A stretch of 64,000 nucleotides of DNA from Rudanella lutea DSM 19387 (GTDB lineage Bacteria; Bacteroidota; Bacteroidia; Cytophagales; Spirosomataceae), in assembly GCF_000383955.1 (NCBI RefSeq), contig NZ_KB913013.1, positions 3,061,194-3,125,193 of the forward strand, read 5' to 3'. The notes under the pieces were generated by a model that was given only the letters and a program-made list of their open reading frames with translations, searched no databases and was not told the DNA's origin. Shown here one piece after another: positions 3,967-64,000 of this stretch. Numbering within the stretch: position 1 is the stretch's first letter; each line of letters starts with the position of its first letter. The position numbers and the translations under genes are program-made.

Positions 3967-4782
3967 CTATTTCACATTCACCAGATCCATGATTTCTGCC
4001 GAAACGCCGGTCATTGAGAAACCACCGTCGTGGAAGAGGTTCTGCATGGTCACCATACGCGTATAATCTGAGAAAAGCGTAATGCAGTAATCGGCGCACT
4101 GATCGGCCGTAGCGTTACCCAAGGGGGCAATCGCATCGGCATATCCGAAAAACTTATCGAACCCACCAATCCCCGAACCAGCCGTGGTTTGCGTTGGCGA
4201 CTGCGATACCGTGTTGACGCGCACCTTGCGGTATTTACCGTAGTGGTAGCCAAAGCTCCGTGCAATGGACTCCAGCATGGCTTTCGCTTCGGCCATGTCG
4301 GTGTAGAACGGAAACGTCCGTTGGGCGGCCATATATGTCAGACCCACTACCGAACCCCACTCATTGATGGCATCCAGCTTATAGGCCGTTTGCATCATGC
4401 GGTGAAACGACAGCGCCGAAATATCGAGGGTTTGCTTAAACCATTCGTAGTTGAGGTCAGTGTAGGCGCGGCCTTTGCGAATATTGGGGCTCATGCCGAT
4501 GCTGTGCAGCACAAAGTCGATTTTGCCGCCCAGAATTTCCTGCGATTGGGTAAAGAGCTTTTCGAGGTCTTCGTTCGAGGTGGCGTCGGCCGGAATAATT
4601 TCGGCATTACATTCTTCCGCCAGCTTTTTGATCTCGCCCATGCGCATAGCAATGGGGGCATTTGTGAGCGTAAAGGTGGCTCCTTCTTCTTTAGCCCGCT
4701 GCGCTATTTTCCAAGCGATTGAGCTGTCGTTGAGGGCACCCGAAATGATGCCGCGTTTTCCTTGTAATAGTCCGTATGCCAT
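3967..4782 (-). CDS. fabI: Enoyl-[acyl-carrier-protein] reductase FabI
   Basis: NADH-dependent reductase of the last step in each fatty-acid elongation round. The 271 residues begin with the typical FabI start (GLLQGKRGIISGALNDSSIAWKIA), a Rossmann fold lacking the usual TGxxxGIG and instead carrying the FabI form of the cofactor loop. The catalytic Y-x6-K is Y160/K167, with a second conserved Tyr at 150. Length matches the family (about 260-275). The gene stands alone, flanked on both sides by intergenic repeats, so it is probably monocistronic. Distinction from FabL/FabV is clear from the Y-x6-K spacing. Confidence 0.95.
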   Translation of the reverse strand: MAYGLLQGKRGIISGALNDSSIAWKIAQRAKEEGATFTLTNAPIAMRMGEIKKLAEECNAEIIPADATSNEDLEKLFTQSQEILGGKIDFVLHSIGMSPNIRKGRAYTDLNYEWFKQTLDISALSFHRMMQTAYKLDAINEWGSVVGLTYMAAQRTFPFYTDMAEAKAMLESIARSFGYHYGKYRKVRVNTVSQSPTQTTAGSGIGGFDKFFGYADAIAPLGNATADQCADYCITLFSDYTRMVTMQNLFHDGGFSMTGVSAEIMDLVNVK

Positions 4783-11609: not shown

Positions 11610-12176
11610 ATGATTACCCCCACTCAATCTGTCCTATCGTTCCCTTCTAATCTACAGACCGTAGCCGAATTTGAACTATGGGAGCGGCAGCACATCCACG
11701 AAGGCAGCTACGAGTTTGTTCGGGGGCGAATCATTCCAAAACCCGCCATGAAACAGGACGAGTTTTACATAGCCGCTTTCCTGACCCGGCTTTTCACACG
11801 CACCGAAGCGTACCAACAAGGCCACGAATTACTCCCCGAAGCCGATTCGTACGTGGACGGTGTCCGTAAGCGTGTCCCTGACCTCGCTTATTTCACCGCC
11901 GATCAGCTATTAGCTATTCGTCGGGGTGGGCGGGTCAGTACCCGGTTTGCTATAGAGATCCTGTCCGATTCTGAATCCTTCGAAGACGTTGTGGAGAAAA
12001 TTCAGGACTATTTCGACGCCGACGCTCAGTTGGTATGGTACATCGTCCCCAACAAGCAACGGATCTATGTGTACAACTCCCCAGATGAGTCGAAGGCTTA
12101 CAAAGGATCGGATCTCATTTCGGCTTCAGCGGTAGTACCGGGGTTTGAGTTTCGGGTTGAGGAGTTGTTTGGGTGA
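11610..12176 (+). CDS. Uma2 family (PD-(D/E)xK-like) putative endonuclease
   Basis: A second Uma2-family protein, 188 residues. Family marks are ELWERQHIHEGSYEFVRGRIIPKP at the N-terminus, RKRVPDLAYFT with the conserved Asp, FAIEILSDSE with the acidic partner, and EKIQDYFDADAQLVWYIVPNKQRIYVY. It is diverged from the copy at 8455, so this is not a recent local duplication. It has its own promoter and is followed 21 bases later by the mosaic unknown gene. Function in the cell is unknown. Confidence 0.88.
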   Translation: MITPTQSVLSFPSNLQTVAEFELWERQHIHEGSYEFVRGRIIPKPAMKQDEFYIAAFLTRLFTRTEAYQQGHELLPEADSYVDGVRKRVPDLAYFTADQLLAIRRGGRVSTRFAIEILSDSESFEDVVEKIQDYFDADAQLVWYIVPNKQRIYVYNSPDESKAYKGSDLISASAVVPGFEFRVEELFG

Positions 12177-12197
12177 TTACTTTATTTCTATCGAAAG

Positions 12198-13847
12198 ATG
12201 AAAAATAGAAAAGAGATTGAGGATCAAATTATGTCTGTGAAACGTAATATCAATCTTGTCATAAATTGGATTGAAATATCAAAGTATACTGCTTCACTTG
12301 CCAATAAGATCAAAGATAAGGAAGCAGAGAAACAGTTATTAGAGAGCAAGCTCCAAGAGTTAGAGAATCAGTTAGCTGCTTTGCGTGCTGATACTTCCTC
12401 AAAGTTGCCTAATTTAAAAAAAGCCAACCAACACCCTAAAAACCAAAGGCTTAAGGCAGACCGGGCACTTTATTTCACAGGAGTAAAGTTTAAAAAGAGC
12501 GAGAAAATTGGTATAAAGGTTGATGGTAATTATAACGTTATTTGTAGCAACAGTTATAGTAGGGACTTTAATCCAAAACGCTTACGAAAAGCCGGAGGAG
12601 AAATTGAAGAGTATTTACGCTTACTTCTTGCATTAAAGACAAAAGCTATTCAAAGTAGTGCAAAAGAGTTTAGGGCTCTTTCTTTAAAGGAAGAAGCCAA
12701 CGGCCTGCAGCCTGTACCAAGTCCAGTTACCTCAAAAGGCCAGCCTAATAAATTAAAGAATAATGTAGACCAACAAAGCCAACTGATTGTAAAAAGCCAC
12801 AAAAAAGCTAGCAAACGTGTAGCAACTCAAAAAGACCCTACAGACTACTCATCATTAATAAAGTTTAATGAGTTTGTAAGGTCGACTATAAAAATTGAAG
12901 AAAAGCTATCTCTGCAAACCCTCAACTACTACCGCACACGTTATGACTTGTTTATCATAAATATAGACACTAAGCACTTAACAAATCTATTAAAATATAA
13001 ATATAATTTATCAAAATTCAAACTTGAAAAATGGGTAAAAAAGCAGGAAAGTAAAAGGACAAATCAATCCTATTCGCCAAGTATTTCTGATACGACATAT
13101 CCTGTTCCAGAAATTGCGTTATCAATACCATGGAGTCAAATTACATTTGATACCGGCTTTTTTAAAACTCATCAATACACCATATCCCTCCCCCGTTCTC
13201 AAAAGTCTTTCAATCAGCTTAAACCATATTTATCAGTTTTCAGGAACACCAGTCTGGAATTACGCGTCGACCCAAAAACGCAAAAAGTCCTTGAGGTTAA
13301 AAATGCCGAAGTTCTCGACCAAGTCTTCGACCGGCTTGAGATTGAGCAGGCATTGACCAGTGCCGACATCAAAAACCCCGACTACTTTGCCCGAACGCTT
13401 TTGGGTCGTTGGAGCAACGAGCGCCTGATTCGGGCGTATGCACCTGAAAGCCGCTCACTCTACCTGAAACATCTGTGCGGGGCCTACTCGTCAAACTACC
13501 GAATCGTACCCGTACGGGAGCACCGTCGTAATGAAAGCAACGATACCGTTACGACCGAAGATGCCTTTCTGTTTCCCATCCACGGCCATCGCTACGTGTA
13601 TATTTTGTGGGAAAGTGTCGAGGACAAACGGGCTACGTATGTTTTTCGCTGTACGCCCAGCAACTATGCAGCCGCCGTTCAAAAAGTGTTTGATTACGTA
13701 GCCTCCGACGAAATCACAAACAAACGCGATCGTTTGCGTCAGGGCAACGTCGGTTATTTCAGGGGTTCGGTAGTGGAATATTGGCAATCATTGAACCACA
13801 ACGACCTGAACGACTGGAAACGACGGCTTACCGAAACCTGCTGGTAG
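12198..13847 (+). CDS. Unknown protein with coiled coil; compositionally mosaic gene
   Basis: An unrecognised protein of 549 residues. Residues about 1-65 form a coiled coil (EAEKQLLESKLQELENQLAAL). A Lys/Ser-rich linker follows at about 150-230 and then a Lys/Tyr-rich segment up to about 320. The first kilobase (12198 to about 13250) is visibly AT-rich with AAA/AAT/TTA codons, unlike everything around it. The last 600 bases have the GC-rich codon use of the neighbours. One open frame spans both, without a lesion. It could be a foreign gene fused to a resident one, or a foreign gene partly ameliorated. No signal peptide or membrane segment is seen. Confidence 0.7.
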   Translation: MKNRKEIEDQIMSVKRNINLVINWIEISKYTASLANKIKDKEAEKQLLESKLQELENQLAALRADTSSKLPNLKKANQHPKNQRLKADRALYFTGVKFKKSEKIGIKVDGNYNVICSNSYSRDFNPKRLRKAGGEIEEYLRLLLALKTKAIQSSAKEFRALSLKEEANGLQPVPSPVTSKGQPNKLKNNVDQQSQLIVKSHKKASKRVATQKDPTDYSSLIKFNEFVRSTIKIEEKLSLQTLNYYRTRYDLFIINIDTKHLTNLLKYKYNLSKFKLEKWVKKQESKRTNQSYSPSISDTTYPVPEIALSIPWSQITFDTGFFKTHQYTISLPRSQKSFNQLKPYLSVFRNTSLELRVDPKTQKVLEVKNAEVLDQVFDRLEIEQALTSADIKNPDYFARTLLGRWSNERLIRAYAPESRSLYLKHLCGAYSSNYRIVPVREHRRNESNDTVTTEDAFLFPIHGHRYVYILWESVEDKRATYVFRCTPSNYAAAVQKVFDYVASDEITNKRDRLRQGNVGYFRGSVVEYWQSLNHNDLNDWKRRLTETCW

Positions 13848-58161: not shown

Positions 58162-59280
58162 ATGCAACTACCTGAAAGCACGGAGCTAGACATTTCGCGC
58201 CTTGCCCGCGTTTTTGCGGACACAACTAACTCATATAAGTTTTACTGGCTACTGGCAATTCTGGACGACCTGAAAGAAAACGACAGAAGCATCATCTCTC
58301 TTAACGACCTTGCTCTAAGGATGGTTGCCAACGTCTGGTATCCGCTCGATTATTTCAAGCTATCGTTTGGCAGTCAGGACGGTTTTAAACCAATTGCCGA
58401 TTTTGTGTCGGCTCGCATGGTGGTTGACCATAGCAAAAACTCACTCCCTGTTTTTGAGCAGTTGACGACAAAGTTGACACATCAAGAATTAGCTACGGTC
58501 TATAAAATGGTCGATACGCGAGTTCGCTACGTACCTTATCGGTTTGTTCGGCCATTTCTGAGCGAGTTTATTACAGTTGAGGACAAGGGCGATAACGTGA
58601 AAAATGCCATTGTGCATTTCAGCAATACTTTGTTTGCTGTAGATCCTAACCGCGTAATGTATCGTTTTTCGAAAGGAGCTATCGAAATCAGTTCGGTCTG
58701 GAAAGACTATCTGCAAAAACACCAGGCCATTTTGCGGGGCTTCACCTACTGGCATCTACTGAGATTCTTACAGAAAAACAACCCGATCGTTGTGGGTTTG
58801 CCTGATAAGCTTTTCAAACATAGTGAGCGAGACCTGAAGCAAGCCGAAACATTCTGGAAAAGCTATTTGCAAACTCACTCTGCGTTAACCTGCATTTATT
58901 CCGGTCAACTGATCACCCGGCAGAATATTAGCTTAGATCATTTTCTGCCCTGGTCATACGTCGTTCATGACCAGCTTTGGAACATCATCCCAACGCCTAA
59001 ATCGGTCAATTCGGCTAAAAACAACTCGCTTCCTTCCGAAGTAGCTTATTTTGAAAAGTACGCCCAATTGCAATTTGATGCTTTTACGTTTCACGCTCAG
59101 AATGGGCACAGTAAGCTGTTAGCTGATTATTTCGCCTTATTTGGACAAGATTTGAACAGTTTGCAGAATCAACCTTACGCGTGGTTTCGTGAAGGTTTAG
59201 AACGCGCCGTTCTACCCCAGCTTCAAACCGCCCGGAACATGGGTTTTGCCTATCCATTTATCTATAAATCCACTGATTAA
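58162..59280 (+). CDS. HNH endonuclease domain protein
   Basis: 372 residues. The N-terminal part (LARVFADTTNSYKFYWLLAILDDL) is helical and of a type seen in stand-alone HNH nucleases. The nuclease domain lies at about 240-295: CIYSGQLITRQNISLDHFLPWSYV with Asp259-His260, then WNIIPTPKSVNSAKNNSLP with the conserved Asn and Lys. Only one cysteine is seen, so no zinc-binding HNH variant. It starts an operon: two bases separate it from kptA. Expected to cut or nick DNA; target unknown. Likely part of a defence or repair set. Confidence 0.82.
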   Translation: MQLPESTELDISRLARVFADTTNSYKFYWLLAILDDLKENDRSIISLNDLALRMVANVWYPLDYFKLSFGSQDGFKPIADFVSARMVVDHSKNSLPVFEQLTTKLTHQELATVYKMVDTRVRYVPYRFVRPFLSEFITVEDKGDNVKNAIVHFSNTLFAVDPNRVMYRFSKGAIEISSVWKDYLQKHQAILRGFTYWHLLRFLQKNNPIVVGLPDKLFKHSERDLKQAETFWKSYLQTHSALTCIYSGQLITRQNISLDHFLPWSYVVHDQLWNIIPTPKSVNSAKNNSLPSEVAYFEKYAQLQFDAFTFHAQNGHSKLLADYFALFGQDLNSLQNQPYAWFREGLERAVLPQLQTARNMGFAYPFIYKSTD

Positions 59281-59282
59281 GC

Positions 59283-59831
59283 ATGCTCGCCGAAGCACAA
59301 ACCACACGCGTTAGTAAATTTCTCAGTCTGGTGCTGCGTCATAAACCCGAAGAAATTGGCATTACGCTGGATGAAAACGGCTGGACGGATGTACCAACGC
59401 TCCTGGTAAAACTGGCTGCGAAAGGGCACCGTATCACACACGAGCAGCTACGTTTCATAGTTGAGACCAACAATAAAAAGCGGTTTGCTTTCAACGAAAA
59501 CGAGACCCGTATTCGGGCAAATCAGGGTCATTCAGTAGAAGTTGATTTGGGTTATGTGCAGAAACAGCCACCCAATTTTTTGTTTCACGGCACAGCAACA
59601 CGGTTTTTGGATGCAATTCTGGCCGAGGGACTAAAGAAGATGGACCGCCATCATGTACACCTGAGTGTCGACGAACAAACAGCGTATAAAGTGGGTAGCC
59701 GACACGGCAAGCCGGTAATATTGACGGTCAAAGCGGGGGAGATGGTTGCTGATGGGCACGTTTTTTACCAGTCTGAAAACGGTGTTTGGCTAACCGACCA
59801 CGTACCAACGGCCTACCTTATTCATGAATAA
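59283..59831 (+). CDS. kptA: RNA 2'-phosphotransferase (KptA/Tpt1)
   Basis: NAD+-dependent enzyme that removes an internal 2'-phosphate from RNA, releasing ADP-ribose 1'',2''-cyclic phosphate. 182 residues; the family catalytic Arg-His-Arg-Arg set is visible as Arg19-His20 (LRHKPEEIGITLDENGW), Arg78 (IRANQGHS) and Arg122 (DRHHVHLS), with FLFHGTATRFL and RHGKPVILTV. In fungi it finishes tRNA splicing. The bacterial role is unknown, though enzymes of this family, including that of Runella, have been characterised in vitro, and some also ADP-ribosylate 5'-phosphate ends. It overlaps the next gene by 8 bases. Confidence 0.95.
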   Translation: MLAEAQTTRVSKFLSLVLRHKPEEIGITLDENGWTDVPTLLVKLAAKGHRITHEQLRFIVETNNKKRFAFNENETRIRANQGHSVEVDLGYVQKQPPNFLFHGTATRFLDAILAEGLKKMDRHHVHLSVDEQTAYKVGSRHGKPVILTVKAGEMVADGHVFYQSENGVWLTDHVPTAYLIHE

Positions 59832-60663
59832 CCCACAAAACCCATACAGCCACCTCACCGCCAAGCAACGAGACACGCCCTCGTTGCCTATTCGGATGCT
59901 GCACGAGCGCAAATTGCTGCATGGCCGGGTGCTGGATTATGGCTGCGGGTTCGGGCAGGATGTGCGTTTTCTGCAAGCAAAGGGCTTCGACGCGCACGGC
60001 TACGACCCGCACCATGCTCCTGACTGGCCCGCCGGAACGTTCGATACCATTGTTTGCTTCTATGTGCTCAACGTGTTGTTCCCCGACGAGCAAACCGATG
60101 TGTTGCTCAACGTTTCGCGCCTACTCAAACCAAGCGGGCGGGCCTACTTCGCGGTTCGGCGCGACATCAGCCGCGATGGTTTCCGAACGCACCAGCTACA
60201 CGGCAAACCCGTTTATCAATGCAGTGTGGTGTTGCCGTTCACGTCCATCTACCGAAACGAGAATACCGAGTTTTACGAATATCGGCATTTTAACCAACTC
60301 GCTACCGAGCCAACAAGCTGCCCGTTTTGCTCGCCCAAACCCAAATTGGAACTACTAGCCGAAACAACATTGACCTATGCCGTGCTGGATGGTTATCCTG
60401 TGAGCAAAGGCCACGCGTTGGTGATGCCAAAAAGACATGTCGCCAACTTCTTCGAGTTGCCCTTGTTGGAGCAAAACGAATGCTGGCAGGTAGTCAATAA
60501 AGTGCAGGAGATTTTGACGGAACGTTACGCGCCGGATGGCTTCAATGTAGGCCTAAATGTCGGGACAGCGGGCGGGCAGAAATTCCCTCACGCGAGTATC
60601 CACGTGATTCCGCGTTACGCGAGCAACGCAGGGGGAGGGATCAGGAACGTAACTAAGCGGTGA
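59824..60663 (+). CDS. Methyltransferase-HIT domain fusion, HIT triad altered
   Basis: 279 residues in two domains. The N-terminal half is a short class I SAM methyltransferase: VLDYGCGFGQDVRFL (about 36-50), GYDPHHAP, FDTIVCFYVLNVL, LLKPSGRAYFAVRRD. From about residue 160 a HIT domain begins: CPFCSPKPK, then GHALVMPKRHV and FNVGLNVGTAGGQKFPHASIHVIPRY. The histidine triad should read HxHxHxx; here it is H-A-S-I-H, so the middle, normally nucleophilic histidine is serine. The gene overlaps kptA by 8 bases. The C-terminus ends soon after the triad (GGGIRNVTKR), where homologues may be longer. Confidence 0.85.
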   Translation: MNNPQNPYSHLTAKQRDTPSLPIRMLHERKLLHGRVLDYGCGFGQDVRFLQAKGFDAHGYDPHHAPDWPAGTFDTIVCFYVLNVLFPDEQTDVLLNVSRLLKPSGRAYFAVRRDISRDGFRTHQLHGKPVYQCSVVLPFTSIYRNENTEFYEYRHFNQLATEPTSCPFCSPKPKLELLAETTLTYAVLDGYPVSKGHALVMPKRHVANFFELPLLEQNECWQVVNKVQEILTERYAPDGFNVGLNVGTAGGQKFPHASIHVIPRYASNAGGGIRNVTKR

Positions 60664-60882
60664 TACTCCTGCCGCATTCCCAAAATAGTAGCGTACAGAA
60701 AGCACTCGTAGTAGTTGGCGAAGATTTTGCCCTGCGCGTATTTCTCCTCCTCGGTCCCTACGGACGTATCAAAGGCCCGTTTGCGGGAAAGCTGCAACGG
60801 CAGTCCGATTATCAATCAACTCGCGGTAGCGGTTGGGGTAGCGCGGCTCTTTACGGTTGAAATGGTCGAGGAGGTTGGGCAT
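60615..60882 (-). pseudogene. Frameshifted and truncated gene remnant
   Basis: On the minus strand an ATG at 60882 opens MPNLLDHFNRKEPRYPNRYR, ending after 37 codons (TGA at 60769-60771). A second frame continues from there: DTSVGTEEEKYAQGKIFANY, then YECFLYATILGMRQEYHR. Both halves look like real protein. The second runs into the antisense of the HIT gene end and loses sense there. The pattern loosely recalls small proteins associated with Dnd (DNA phosphorothioation) loci, but I cannot confirm it. It starts 4 bases after the PIN gene ends. Confidence 0.6.
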
Positions 60883-60886
60883 GGGG

Positions 60887-61303
60887 TTAGCTTGATTGCG
60901 CCAAAAAGTTCAAAAAATCCTGTGCGGTGATAACTGTTACTTGCGGGAAGTCAATTGTATCTTTCAACACATCGTAATGTCGGTCGTTCGTCACTAAATA
61001 ATCTGCTCCACAGGCAAAGGCACAGTCAGCAAATTTGTCGTCGTCGGGATCAGCCTTGATTTTGTACCACTTGTAATAGACATCGACCAACGTAACATTC
61101 GATAAATTGAGCAATTCGCGGAGTTGAATCTCAGTGCGCGGTAGGCCAAGTCGAACGCTGATTTGTTCTTCATATTCGATGACCATTTCGTTAGTCAAAA
61201 AAAGCGTATAACGACCTTATCTGAGTGCCTCGAAAATTGGATGAAAAGGCGAGTGGCTTGGCAAGGAAACCAGTAAAACGTTGGTGTCGAGAACTATATT
61301 CAT
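60887..61303 (-). pseudogene. PIN-domain toxin gene with an in-frame TAA
   Basis: Read from the ATG at 61301-61303 the frame gives MNIVLDTNVLLVSLPSHSPF and then FEALR, stop (TAA at 61217-61219, codon 29), and continues in the same frame with GRYTLFLTNEMVIEYEEQ to the end at 60887. The N-terminal DTN with the Asp, the glutamates of the middle and DPDDDKFADCAFACGADYLVTNDRHY form a complete PIN RNase fold of the VapC-like type. Only the single stop codon breaks it. The antitoxin-like gene is 6 bases upstream. Translation could restart at the ATG of TNEM, but the active-site Asp would be lost. Confidence 0.8.
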
Positions 61304-61309
61304 CGACAC

Positions 61310-61519
61310 TTATTGCTTTTCATCGTTTAACCATTCATTCATGGTTTGCTCAGACCAACCCTGTTGTTCCCAGGCTTTGTCTGCCAGGGTGGTTAGACGA
61401 TTGGCGAAATATTGTCCAATTAATTCACGGATGTTTAGCAGGTCCGTTTCGCTTACCTGTTGAGCATACAGTTTCAACAGTTCCTGTTGCAGATTCGTTA
61501 GTTTTCCAGTTGTTACCAT
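61310..61519 (-). CDS. Probable antitoxin of the PIN toxin
   Basis: 69 residues: MVTTGKLTNLQQELLKLYAQQVSETDLLNIRELIGQYFANRLTTLADKAWEQQGWSEQTMNEWLNDEKQ. It is helical and acidic at the end, with the length and place of antitoxins that precede VapC-like PIN toxins; the C-terminal tail would cap the toxin. No DNA-binding motif is obvious. Gap to the toxin ATG is 6 bases, and to the upstream broken gene 2 bases. Role inferred from position. Confidence 0.7.
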   Translation of the reverse strand: MVTTGKLTNLQQELLKLYAQQVSETDLLNIRELIGQYFANRLTTLADKAWEQQGWSEQTMNEWLNDEKQ

Positions 61520-61853: not shown

Positions 61854-64000
61854 TCAAAGGGCAATCTTCTGAATCGTCACTTCCAGTTCGCTCCGGTGGG
61901 TGTTCGAGACCCCATCAGGCATGTCCAACTGATACACGTTCAACGCTTTACCGGTGCGCTGCATACTCTCTTTTAACTCGCGGAGCCGTTCGTAATCAGG
62001 CTTGTAGCGACCCACGCGGTCAGGGTCTTCGAGCAGTAACTCTTTCACAATTACAATGCTTTGCGTAAACGTATTGGCCGTTTCGTTGAAGAACGTCATC
62101 GCCTTTACCACGTCGAAGTCCGACACGGGCGCGTCGGAAATGAGTGGGTAAAATGAAGCATAGTTGCGGGTTTTATTGGCCGACACAATAGCCATGATGA
62201 TAGAGAGCTTCAGCGAGCTAACGAGTGAGGTATTCAGGTTGCTCACCTCGCGCCCATCGGCATTCAGGATAGCCGGTCGGTAACCGCCATCGGTGCCGGT
62301 TTCCACAAACCGGATGGTGCCGTAGAAAGCTCCCGTGGGCGCGTTGATGTTGCGGTAGTGTTCATTAGCCGCGTCTTCGAGTTGCCGCACCAACTCGCGG
62401 TACTTGGTATCTTTGACGCGCTTGGCCAACTCGGCCATGTCGAACAACATCTCTTTCTTCTGAATCAGATAGGGCGGTACCTGCCCCTGCGAGAGCACGT
62501 TCAGCCGGTCGTTAATTTGTTTCTGCCGATTTTCTTTCTGCTCTTTTTGCGTCCGGTACTTATCCAGATCACGGCCAAACTTTGTTATATCAGCAATAGC
62601 TCCATCCATCGAGTTCATGATGTCACGTGCGTTGGTGATGCCGCTCGTTTGCTCCTGCTCCTGAAGCTCGCGCATCCGGGCTTCCAGTTCCAGTTTGGTA
62701 GCCCCTACCTGTTCCTGCTTCATTTGTCCGTCGTGCATCGACTGCTGCACCCGGTAGTTGATGCTTTCGATACTGCTCGCCATACCCAGCCCGTTTTGCA
62801 TCAATTGCTTAAAAAACGACTTCAGATTCGTTCGGGGGAGTTCGGGTTGACTAATTTCCGGTTCGGGCAAGAGTAAACTTCGGATGGCTTCGTAGGCATC
62901 ACTGCCTTCGGGGGCCGGTCGGTCGCAAACCTTACAGTGTTCGTCGGCAAGCATTTGCCGGACATACATCGGCTCCGGCACGTTGTCGGGCAGCCGAATC
63001 TGTAGTTTCTCACCCAATTTTTTGTCTAAGTTGGCAATAGCTTTGCGTGTAGCCACGGCCACGTCGTAGGCTTCGTGTTTTTCTTCAAATTTTCGGAGCA
63101 GGAACGTGGTATCCAGCAGCACCCAATTGTCGGTGAAGAGCTTGCGGCCCAGGGTTTCGTTGAACGTATCGGCTTCTTTTACGGCGTTTTCATAAGCCCG
63201 GCGGGCCTGATCGCGGGTTTGGGTGTACTCGTTAATTTTCTGGGCAAACTCGATACTTGCCAACAGCCCGTCTTTCTTTTCTTTGGCAAATTGCTCATTC
63301 TGCAGAGCCGAGGTAATCTGCCCCTCTAATTGGGCAATTTCCCGTTCAAGCAACCGGTATTCAGTTTGCAGTTTCTCAATTTCCTCCTGCCCTTTCTGTG
63401 ATTTTTTTAGTTCCAGATCAAATGCGTTCTTAGCCGTTTCGTAGGCCTTTTGTGTCGCCTGAATGTATCGATCCCAACGGTCAATGTCCGAGAGCTTTTT
63501 GATCACATTCCGGAGCGAGGTCGTGTTTGACGTATCGATCAGGTTATTGATTCCGCGTTCGCCCTGAAACCATACGTAGGGCCGCACATCGACCGGAATC
63601 AGCCATTCCAGCACCTCTTCATATCGGCTCGGCGGGATAGGTTTGAACGAAATGATGTCGTATTCGAATAGCTGAAACTCGCTTTTGGCAGGTTCAACCC
63701 ACTGCTTGGTGCTGGTTCGGCGGATGGTATAGGTTCTAATTAACTGATAAGCTTTGGGGGCGTTGTTGCGGACAGCTTCCACTTCAATGCAAACTTTTGC
63801 TTCAACCGACTCGCCAACAGCACACTGCTCTTTGGCTTTTTCGGACACTAACTCACCTTTAACCACGCTTGTAGGCCTAAGCTTACTTAGGGTTGCGGTG
63901 GTAGCGTTATCCGTAATGCCATCGCCAAACACCCACTGAAAGGCGTCGTAGAGCTTTGATTTTCCGTAGCCGTTGGCCCCAAGCACCATATTCAGCCCTT
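61854..64000 (-). CDS. Rad50/DndD-like SMC ATPase with CxxC hook (5' end outside window)
   Basis: At least 715 residues; the N-terminus lies beyond the right edge (the frame is open: KGLNMVLGANGYGKSKLYDAF). Walker A is GANGYGKS. Two long coiled coils flank a zinc-hook-like CKVC (62925-62936). The C-terminal head has SLVSSLKLSIIMAIV (weak ABC signature) and PLISDAPVSDFDVVKAM (Walker B/D-loop). YVWFQGERGINNLI resembles the FFDGE block of DndD. It may be DndD of a DNA-phosphorothioation system or an ATPase of another defence system; DndB, C and E are not visible. A tight string of small, mostly broken genes follows. Confidence 0.78.
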   Translation of the reverse strand, partial: GLNMVLGANGYGKSKLYDAFQWVFGDGITDNATTATLSKLRPTSVVKGELVSEKAKEQCAVGESVEAKVCIEVEAVRNNAPKAYQLIRTYTIRRTSTKQWVEPAKSEFQLFEYDIISFKPIPPSRYEEVLEWLIPVDVRPYVWFQGERGINNLIDTSNTTSLRNVIKKLSDIDRWDRYIQATQKAYETAKNAFDLELKKSQKGQEEIEKLQTEYRLLEREIAQLEGQITSALQNEQFAKEKKDGLLASIEFAQKINEYTQTRDQARRAYENAVKEADTFNETLGRKLFTDNWVLLDTTFLLRKFEEKHEAYDVAVATRKAIANLDKKLGEKLQIRLPDNVPEPMYVRQMLADEHCKVCDRPAPEGSDAYEAIRSLLLPEPEISQPELPRTNLKSFFKQLMQNGLGMASSIESINYRVQQSMHDGQMKQEQVGATKLELEARMRELQEQEQTSGITNARDIMNSMDGAIADITKFGRDLDKYRTQKEQKENRQKQINDRLNVLSQGQVPPYLIQKKEMLFDMAELAKRVKDTKYRELVRQLEDAANEHYRNINAPTGAFYGTIRFVETGTDGGYRPAILNADGREVSNLNTSLVSSLKLSIIMAIVSANKTRNYASFYPLISDAPVSDFDVVKAMTFFNETANTFTQSIVIVKELLLEDPDRVGRYKPDYERLRELKESMQRTGKALNVYQLDMPDGVSNTHRSELEVTIQKIAL

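Follow-up and report, generated by a model that had tools for sequence, protein, structure and literature searches.

We analysed a stretch of 64,000 nucleotides from Rudanella lutea DSM 19387 (contig NZ_KB913013.1, positions 3,061,194 to 3,125,193), hereafter the window, in which three tightly packed genes encode an HNH nuclease, a KptA/Tpt1 RNA 2'-phosphotransferase and a class I S-adenosylmethionine (SAM) methyltransferase fused to a HIT domain (MTHIT). The three open reading frames (ORFs), all on the + strand, are intact and specify 372, 182 and 279 amino acids, respectively; HNH and KptA are separated by 2 bases, and KptA overlaps MTHIT by 8. The first core gene, HNH (58162..59280), was identified from its ORF, from the Pfam family HNH_4 (PF13395; 39.8 bits against a cut-off of 22) and from alignments of 10 and 13 rows, and in its HNH domain (amino acids 244-291, 58891..59034) the residues D259, H260 and N283 are invariant among 13 aligned relatives. 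The optional third gene, KptA (59283..59831), matched PTS_2-RNA (PF01885) with 185 bits against a cut-off of 26 and the NCBIfam equivalog NF002014 with 266 bits against 239. The second core gene, MTHIT (59824..60663), matched both Methyltransf_23 (49.5 bits against 27) and HIT (62.1 against 21.5) within one protein, and its HIT domain covers amino acids 177-265 (60352..60618). Chance ORFs were excluded by full-length alignments of homologues and by the invariant active-site residues. The first-pass annotation, made from the DNA letters, had proposed these ORFs with the same positions, gaps of 2 and -8 bases and families, and all of this was borne out by the ORFs and the above-cut-off profiles. 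The G+C content is 46.7% at 58-60 kb and 47.6% at 60-62 kb, which makes the region A+T-richer than most of the window, and none of the three proteins had a match in the other three genomes of the genus. The low G+C content together with the absence from the rest of the genus fits an acquired island.

HNH and MTHIT form a conserved pair

The distribution of the genes was examined in 222 genomes of the host's own family (genomes and loci are designated by G and L numbers). MTHIT was matched in 21 of these, and in 17 the protein is full-length, the other four, with partial MTHIT or plain HIT matches only, being excluded from the 17. The HNH gene lies directly upstream of full-length MTHIT in 16 of the 17 genomes. 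In the 17th (G126), HNH and the first 82 KptA residues end one contig and the remaining KptA and MTHIT begin another, and we infer the same adjacency across the contig break. Over all 222 genomes, the co-occurrence of MTHIT and HNH is highly significant (Fisher p 1.9e-18). The coupling extends further. In a phylum sample of 395 genomes, the HNH profile matched 27, and at HNH loci outside the own family scoring above 100 bits, MTHIT is directly downstream in 11 of the 14 that were fetched (G542 with 141 bits, two G270 pieces and nine rows below 70 bits were left out). The best 80 of 168 MTHIT relatives in GTDB include 13 Bacteroidota records, of which 11 have HNH next to MTHIT and two begin at a contig edge. 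The single Anaerolineae record also has HNH beside MTHIT. The coupling of the two genes is thus seen across the Bacteroidota as well as in a single genome of the Anaerolineae.

The pair is also jointly present or absent at one site. Two genomes of the Runella group, G172 and G171, share a locus whose flanks are 91% identical over 5.3 kb and 94% identical over 7.2 kb. In G172, HNH-MTHIT occupies the space that separates the end of a response-regulator gene from the KptA start codon, and at the same site G171 has an unrelated short spacer with neither HNH nor MTHIT. KptA, an RNA ligase and an HD-kinase are present at the locus in both genomes, and because both retain KptA, HNH-MTHIT moves or is lost without KptA. 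HNH-MTHIT is the conserved unit and KptA is the guest. The earlier grouping of the three genes as one operon was right about their packing, but KptA is an extra to a two-gene unit, and phosphorothioation-type neighbours on the opposite strand had been overlooked.

HNH also occurs without MTHIT, at 14 of 30 own-family loci (two of which are contig breaks) and at 3 of the 14 phylum loci. For example, G198 carries an intact-looking HNH with SspA, SspB and SspC in a genome without any MTHIT match. The idea of HNH as a toxin that requires MTHIT as its antidote was rejected on the basis of G198 and other such genomes. At two further loci (L183 of G163 and L184 of G166), MTHIT is kept and the HNH gene that occupies the partner position is strongly diverged; the HNH of L036, the G166 locus, has 22% identity to that of the window.

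KptA as an optional third gene

KptA is present in 31 of the 222 own-family genomes and adjoins HNH-MTHIT in six of them. It lies between HNH and MTHIT in G000, G048, G126, G164 and G190, and downstream of MTHIT in G172. It is missing from 11 of the 17 own-family HNH-MTHIT loci and from all 14 fetched phylum loci, and 25 of the 31 KptA genomes have no full-length MTHIT. Of these 25, 20 were used as controls, G218 was treated apart and four loci were not fetched. The first-pass annotation had expected that a shared pathway would show as recurrent neighbours of KptA, and here the evidence is divided: KptA and MTHIT are adjacent in all six genomes having both, but neither HNH nor MTHIT was found near KptA at the 20 fetched loci of the MTHIT-less genomes. 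Genomes with MTHIT show a mild enrichment of KptA (p 0.018 over 222 genomes). In G218 (L190), interrupted KptA pieces at about 10.1-10.6 kb and a broken HNH relative at 4244 lie some 6 kb apart, with no MTHIT.

A KptA tree of 26 rows puts the six copies from cassettes at two positions, interspersed with copies from outside cassettes. A constraint placing the six in one clade was rejected by the approximately unbiased (AU) test (p-AU 9.6e-54), and at least 3 changes are required on well-supported branches. It is likely that KptA joined HNH-MTHIT more than once. One joining with later losses could also explain the tree; the deviating position of the G172 KptA speaks for separate joinings.

KptA itself has other partners. 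KptA and HD-kinase co-occur in 15 own-family genomes (p 2.7e-6), and KptA lies directly beside ligase and HD-kinase genes in G164, G171, G172, G195 and G202. In G164, an RNA ligase (PF09414) and the HD-kinase come after KptA, which there stands between HNH and MTHIT; in G172, an RNA ligase and an HD-kinase follow KptA, as judged by similarity; and in G048, an HD-kinase match is located about 8 kb from the cassette. Since two of the six cassette genomes carry RNA ligase and HD-kinase in the same gene run, a connection of KptA itself to RNA repair is still plausible. In the R. lutea genome, neither the HD-kinase nor the PF09414 RNA ligase was matched. The G164 KptA is identical over 174 aligned residues to PDB 7kw8, which is probably the model Runella slithyformis Tpt1. 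In the window KptA, R19, H20, R67 and R122 align with those of solved enzymes and make up the Arg-His-Arg-Arg tetrad described as essential for Tpt1 (PMC6333775). The same source treats the substrate and natural role of bacterial Tpt1 as unsolved, and KptA has been discussed as an RNA-repair enzyme in viruses (PMC9503650).

Features of the HNH nuclease and MTHIT

The HNH domain is predicted to be of the Cas9-like, DNA-cutting kind. By alignment, its D259, H260 and N283 presumably correspond to Cas9 D839, H840 and N863.

HIT proteins carry the motif H-x-H-x-H, in which the middle His is the nucleophile. In the window MTHIT the triad is degenerate and reads H256-A-S-I-H260 (60589..60603, + strand), with Ser at the nucleophile position. 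Sequence comparison showed that the middle His is replaced in 85 of 96 MTHIT relatives, including the window's, and retained in 11, one of which (L253) is without the first His. The HIT domain had been suggested to act on nucleotide adducts in the manner of aprataxin. Because this HIT clade is without the middle His of the triad, no aprataxin-like adduct removal is expected, and such chemistry by the window HIT domain appears unlikely; a role as an aprataxin-like deadenylase was rejected for the same loss. The methyltransferase half has 36-43% identity over 88-94 amino acids to proteins annotated as 'DNA phosphorothioation-associated putative methyltransferases'.

MTHIT also occurs in cyanobacteria. 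We collected 66 cyanobacterial MTHIT loci (L037 and L039-L104 minus L063), from many filamentous cyanobacteria, and these share a degenerate HIT site. In their fetched flanks, neither HNH nor KptA was found. When 24 of the cyanobacterial genomes (for 24 of the 66 loci) were searched, an HNH relative was located elsewhere in five. This MTHIT of cyanobacteria, whose HIT site is changed and whose flanks are free of HNH, poses another puzzle. The MTHIT tree comprised 52 of the 96 proteins, with every third cyanobacterial protein taken.

Four viral contigs (L105:8004-8447, L106:8004-8447, L107:7974-8420 and L108:121-567) encode a stand-alone relative of the methyltransferase half, of 147-148 amino acids and without HIT. 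Viral contigs gave one weak HNH match, and the phage and plasmid records contained no place covering 80% of MTHIT. HNH was found in 17 plasmid records, 14 of them with coverage of at least 80%. A phage origin was rejected, as viral contigs offer only the HIT-less methyltransferase and one weak HNH, and HNH is on plasmids instead.

HNH loci and phosphorothioation or BREX genes

A phosphorothioation gene of the Ssp, Dnd, Pbe or type-4 BREX sets lies within 8 kb of HNH at 14 of 51 loci, compared with none of the 20 KptA loci and none of the 66 cyanobacterial MTHIT loci used as controls (0/86 together; p 2.7e-7), a tally whose queries were taken from HNH loci and are thus biased in their favour. 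Among the 51 HNH loci, L200 probably holds the remaining half of the gene at L181. The cysteine desulfurase SspA, which is near 2 of the 66 cyanobacterial controls, was excluded from the tally. In a scan with PF13182, which is independent of these queries, DUF4007/SspB was found at 30 places in 29 of the 222 genomes, and five of the 30 are within 3.2 kb of HNH (G108, G126, G143, G198 and G211), two of these being fragments. As a whole, HNH is enriched beside phosphorothioation-type genes. In addition, PbeA and MTHIT co-occur over the 222 genomes (p 0.0038).

Several loci illustrate this enrichment. Using PADLOC models, the order SspB-SspC-SspD-HNH-MTHIT was named in a Hymenobacter locus (L028), and SspA and SspC were named beside the G198 HNH, where DUF4007 is also found. 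By similarity, SspB and SspC lie upstream of HNH-MTHIT in L253. In G126, DUF4007/SspB-SspC-HNH-KptA-MTHIT is followed by PglZ and BrxL, giving an island like type 4 of bacteriophage exclusion (BREX) over two contigs. In L252, DndF, a PbeC/DndD-type ATPase and DndC are beside HNH. Three of the five cyanobacterial HNH loci are near SspC and SspA genes. Five of the 17 plasmid records with HNH, and one of eight with MTHIT, were examined. Three of the five HNH records carry phosphorothioation-type genes, and those of Nostoc and Allochromatium have none. Synechocystis pSYSM has DUF4007, an SspC-like N-terminal part, HNH, a cysteine desulfurase and a DNA phosphorothioation-associated methyltransferase; a Hymenobacter yonginensis plasmid has HNH, a cysteine desulfurase, DUF4007, a large ORF in the SspC position, PAPS reductase and SspF; and a Leptolyngbya plasmid has a cysteine desulfurase beside HNH.

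Other neighbours were also recorded. In L262 (8383-9429) and L264 (8630-10153), a C5 DNA methylase lies downstream of HNH-MTHIT in a restriction-modification-like layout, which fits the idea that the pair accompanies more than one DNA modification chemistry. On the Hymenobacter yonginensis plasmid (L268:5825-7003), a gene with a RES domain, which is of the NAD-consuming type, lies upstream of both HNH and the genes of Ssp type. On the Allochromatium vinosum plasmid (L269:7974-13997), the HNH relative and a gene for the RNA ligase RtcB are about 3.7 kb apart.

The remainder of the R. lutea locus

Directly past the MTHIT stop codon, on the - strand, is a broken PbeD-like remnant (60660..60882) of about the first 69 residues in two frames, recognized by tblastn against G112 (L198). 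Its intact relative in G112 has 171 amino acids, follows a PbeC-like gene and has no PADLOC match, so that the name PbeD is given by place alone. Between MTHIT and the PbeC-like gene of R. lutea, also on the - strand, are a PIN-domain, toxin-like gene assigned by Pfam (60887-61198) and a small ORF in the antitoxin position (61310-61519). The PbeC-like ABC/SMC-type ATPase (61854..64000, - strand), a context gene, runs past the window end; it has 739 amino acids in L002:48-2267 and 81 bits in PADLOC. Further on are a 97-amino-acid protein in the PbeB position and then PbeA (PADLOC, 992 bits). Thus, PbeA, the PbeB-position gene and the PbeC-like gene are open and the PbeD-like gene is broken. The reading frames of HNH, KptA and MTHIT are open, and apart from the HIT triad their motifs are intact. 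In G112, an MTHIT remnant with stops lies beside PbeA.

The R. lutea genome gave no match to DUF4007/SspB and none to SspD, the latter in a search run without a positive control; a working Ssp-type phosphorothioation system therefore appears unlikely in this genome. The BREX type 4 genes PglZ, BrxL and BrxC/SspC are not within 8 kb of its HNH, the remaining genome not having been searched for them. The window is richest in A+T at 12-14 kb (41.8% G+C); around this part, at 11610-13847, a Uma2-type putative restriction endonuclease gene is followed by an ORF of 549 amino acids that has no Pfam match.

Discussion

With a confidence somewhat above even, we interpret HNH-MTHIT as a mobile two-gene unit that is most likely a DNA-defence module against invaders, with KptA outside its pathway. 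In this model, HNH would nick or cut invading DNA, its helical N-terminal region might read DNA or the modification state of DNA, and in Ssp, Dnd and BREX-4 islands it could serve as an extra or replacement restriction effector. MTHIT would be a partner of HNH that binds SAM and nucleotides and acts as a regulator or modifier, and the HIT domain of the window clade may bind nucleotides and probably does not hydrolyse them. KptA would be an enzyme of RNA repair that was recruited to these islands, in some cases together with RNA ligase and HD-kinase, and there it could restore RNA that is cleaved in the course of infection or by suicide ribonucleases. The defence role proposed in the first-pass annotation is supported by context, namely the patchy distribution, the neighbours of phosphorothioation, BREX or DNA-methylase type at part of the loci, and the present/absent site; a compact HNH-MTHIT pair found in many bacteria is probably antiviral. 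Two results weigh against the association with phosphorothioation genes: 37 of the 51 HNH loci have no phosphorothioation gene within 8 kb, and the genome-level co-occurrence with DUF4007 is not significant for either MTHIT (p 0.25) or HNH (p 0.22).

A bolder form of the defence module is rather unlikely in our estimate. It holds that HNH-MTHIT is an undescribed defence system working alone or as the effector of SspE-less phosphorothioation islands, in which the degenerate HIT domain as a nucleotide sensor, and a methyltransferase of the phosphorothioation-associated kind, would license HNH, and Tpt1 with ligase and HD-kinase would form the RNA-damage repair arm of the islands. If true, this would provide the first natural context for the biochemically well-studied bacterial Tpt1.

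Three other explanations were considered. First, the pair might resemble restriction-modification or toxin-antidote genes, with a toxic HNH and a methyltransferase half that protects by methylating DNA or by modifying HNH or a signal. The two-gene coupling, the 4-base overlap of HNH stop and MTHIT start in L169, L178 and L181 (with mechanically assigned start codons), the C5 DNA methylases after the pair in L262 and L264, and the retention of MTHIT with a divergent HNH replacement in G163 and G166 are all consistent with it. However, no DNA-methylase Pfam model was among the MTHIT matches, intact-looking HNH persists in MTHIT-less genomes such as G198, and MTHIT stands without HNH in the flanks at the 66 cyanobacterial loci; we consider this explanation unlikely. 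Second, HNH-MTHIT, KptA, PbeABC and the PIN toxin gene might be functionally unlinked residents of an integration hot-spot, as could be suggested by the cassette KptA copies not forming one clade, the low G+C stretch and the G172 pair lying beside a KptA-ligase-HD-kinase run that G171 has without it. Yet the coupling of HNH and MTHIT recurs in diverged lineages of two phyla, with the genes often overlapping or abutting, and KptA lies between them in five of six cases, including one that spans a contig break, which makes a complete lack of linkage quite improbable. Third, the single end-repair route of the first-pass annotation, in which HNH cuts, KptA and HIT process the ends and the methyltransferase marks them, draws on the tight packing with its overlap, on the KptA-MTHIT adjacency in six of six genomes (though these KptA copies fall in two separate tree parts) and on the RNA ligase and HD-kinase in G164 and, by similarity, G172 and the more distant HD-kinase in G048, but it is very unlikely and was rejected as a fixed three-gene pathway, because KptA is optional (11 of 17 family loci and all 14 phylum loci go without it) and its copies in the cassettes do not group as one clade, the HIT nucleophile is gone in 85 of 96 proteins, HNH appears to be of the Cas9-like DNA-cutting kind, and the R. 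lutea genome has no match to HD-kinase or PF09414 ligase.

With HNH-MTHIT as a defence module and KptA as its guest, the trio gives a concrete place to test the role of bacterial Tpt1. Particularly, the G164 gene set and the natural loci with and without HNH-MTHIT (G172 and G171) make the Tpt1 question testable. In the literature searched, with subscription papers not covered, we found no description of an HNH paired with a methyltransferase-HIT protein.

Comparison with known systems

The methyltransferase core of MTHIT is homologous to that of TIGR04096 (NCBIfam), but its 58 bits are under the model cut-off of 150, and the two annotated examples, of 690 and 850 amino acids, are matched via the methyltransferase core only, whereas MTHIT is a short core plus HIT. 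The PADLOC model for ThsC, described as a HIT protein of Thoeris (PMC8565338), matches the HIT half with 31.9 bits. Unlike type II Thoeris, no TIR or ThsA is among the scanned window neighbours, and HIT is here fused to a methyltransferase. The adjacent sets in G164, G171, G172, G195 and G202 resemble Tpt1/KptA with RNA ligase and HD-kinase (HD-Pnk), but the R. lutea genome has a match to neither partner.

PbeA-D has been defined as an HKD-helicase, a small protein, a CxC ABC-ATPase and a DndE cognate (PMC10853773). The R. lutea locus abuts PbeA and a PbeC-like ATPase, but its PbeD-like gene is broken and HNH, KptA and MTHIT are not Pbe parts. Both phosphorothioation and BREX islands are described as carrying diverse extra nucleases (PMC10853773, PMC12839542). 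For Dnd neighbourhoods, the relevant passages of PMC10853773 describe such nucleases and mention neither KptA nor HIT. Type-4 BREX (SspB/BrxP, BrxC/SspC, PglZ and BrxL) is resembled by G126, with DUF4007/SspB, SspC, PglZ and BrxL around HNH-KptA-MTHIT, but the passages of PMC12839542 on this type name no HIT, KptA or RNA-ligase component. The standalone HNH domains which they list as BREX extras might include the present HNH family. Finally, compared with Ssp (SspABCD with SspE or SspFGH), R. lutea differs in its genome having no DUF4007/SspB or SspD match. Elsewhere, the HNH genes of this family lie in islands with SspA, SspB, SspC or SspD in both Bacteroidota and cyanobacteria, but here the additional genes encode an HNH of the Cas9 type and a methyltransferase fused to HIT, and not SspE.

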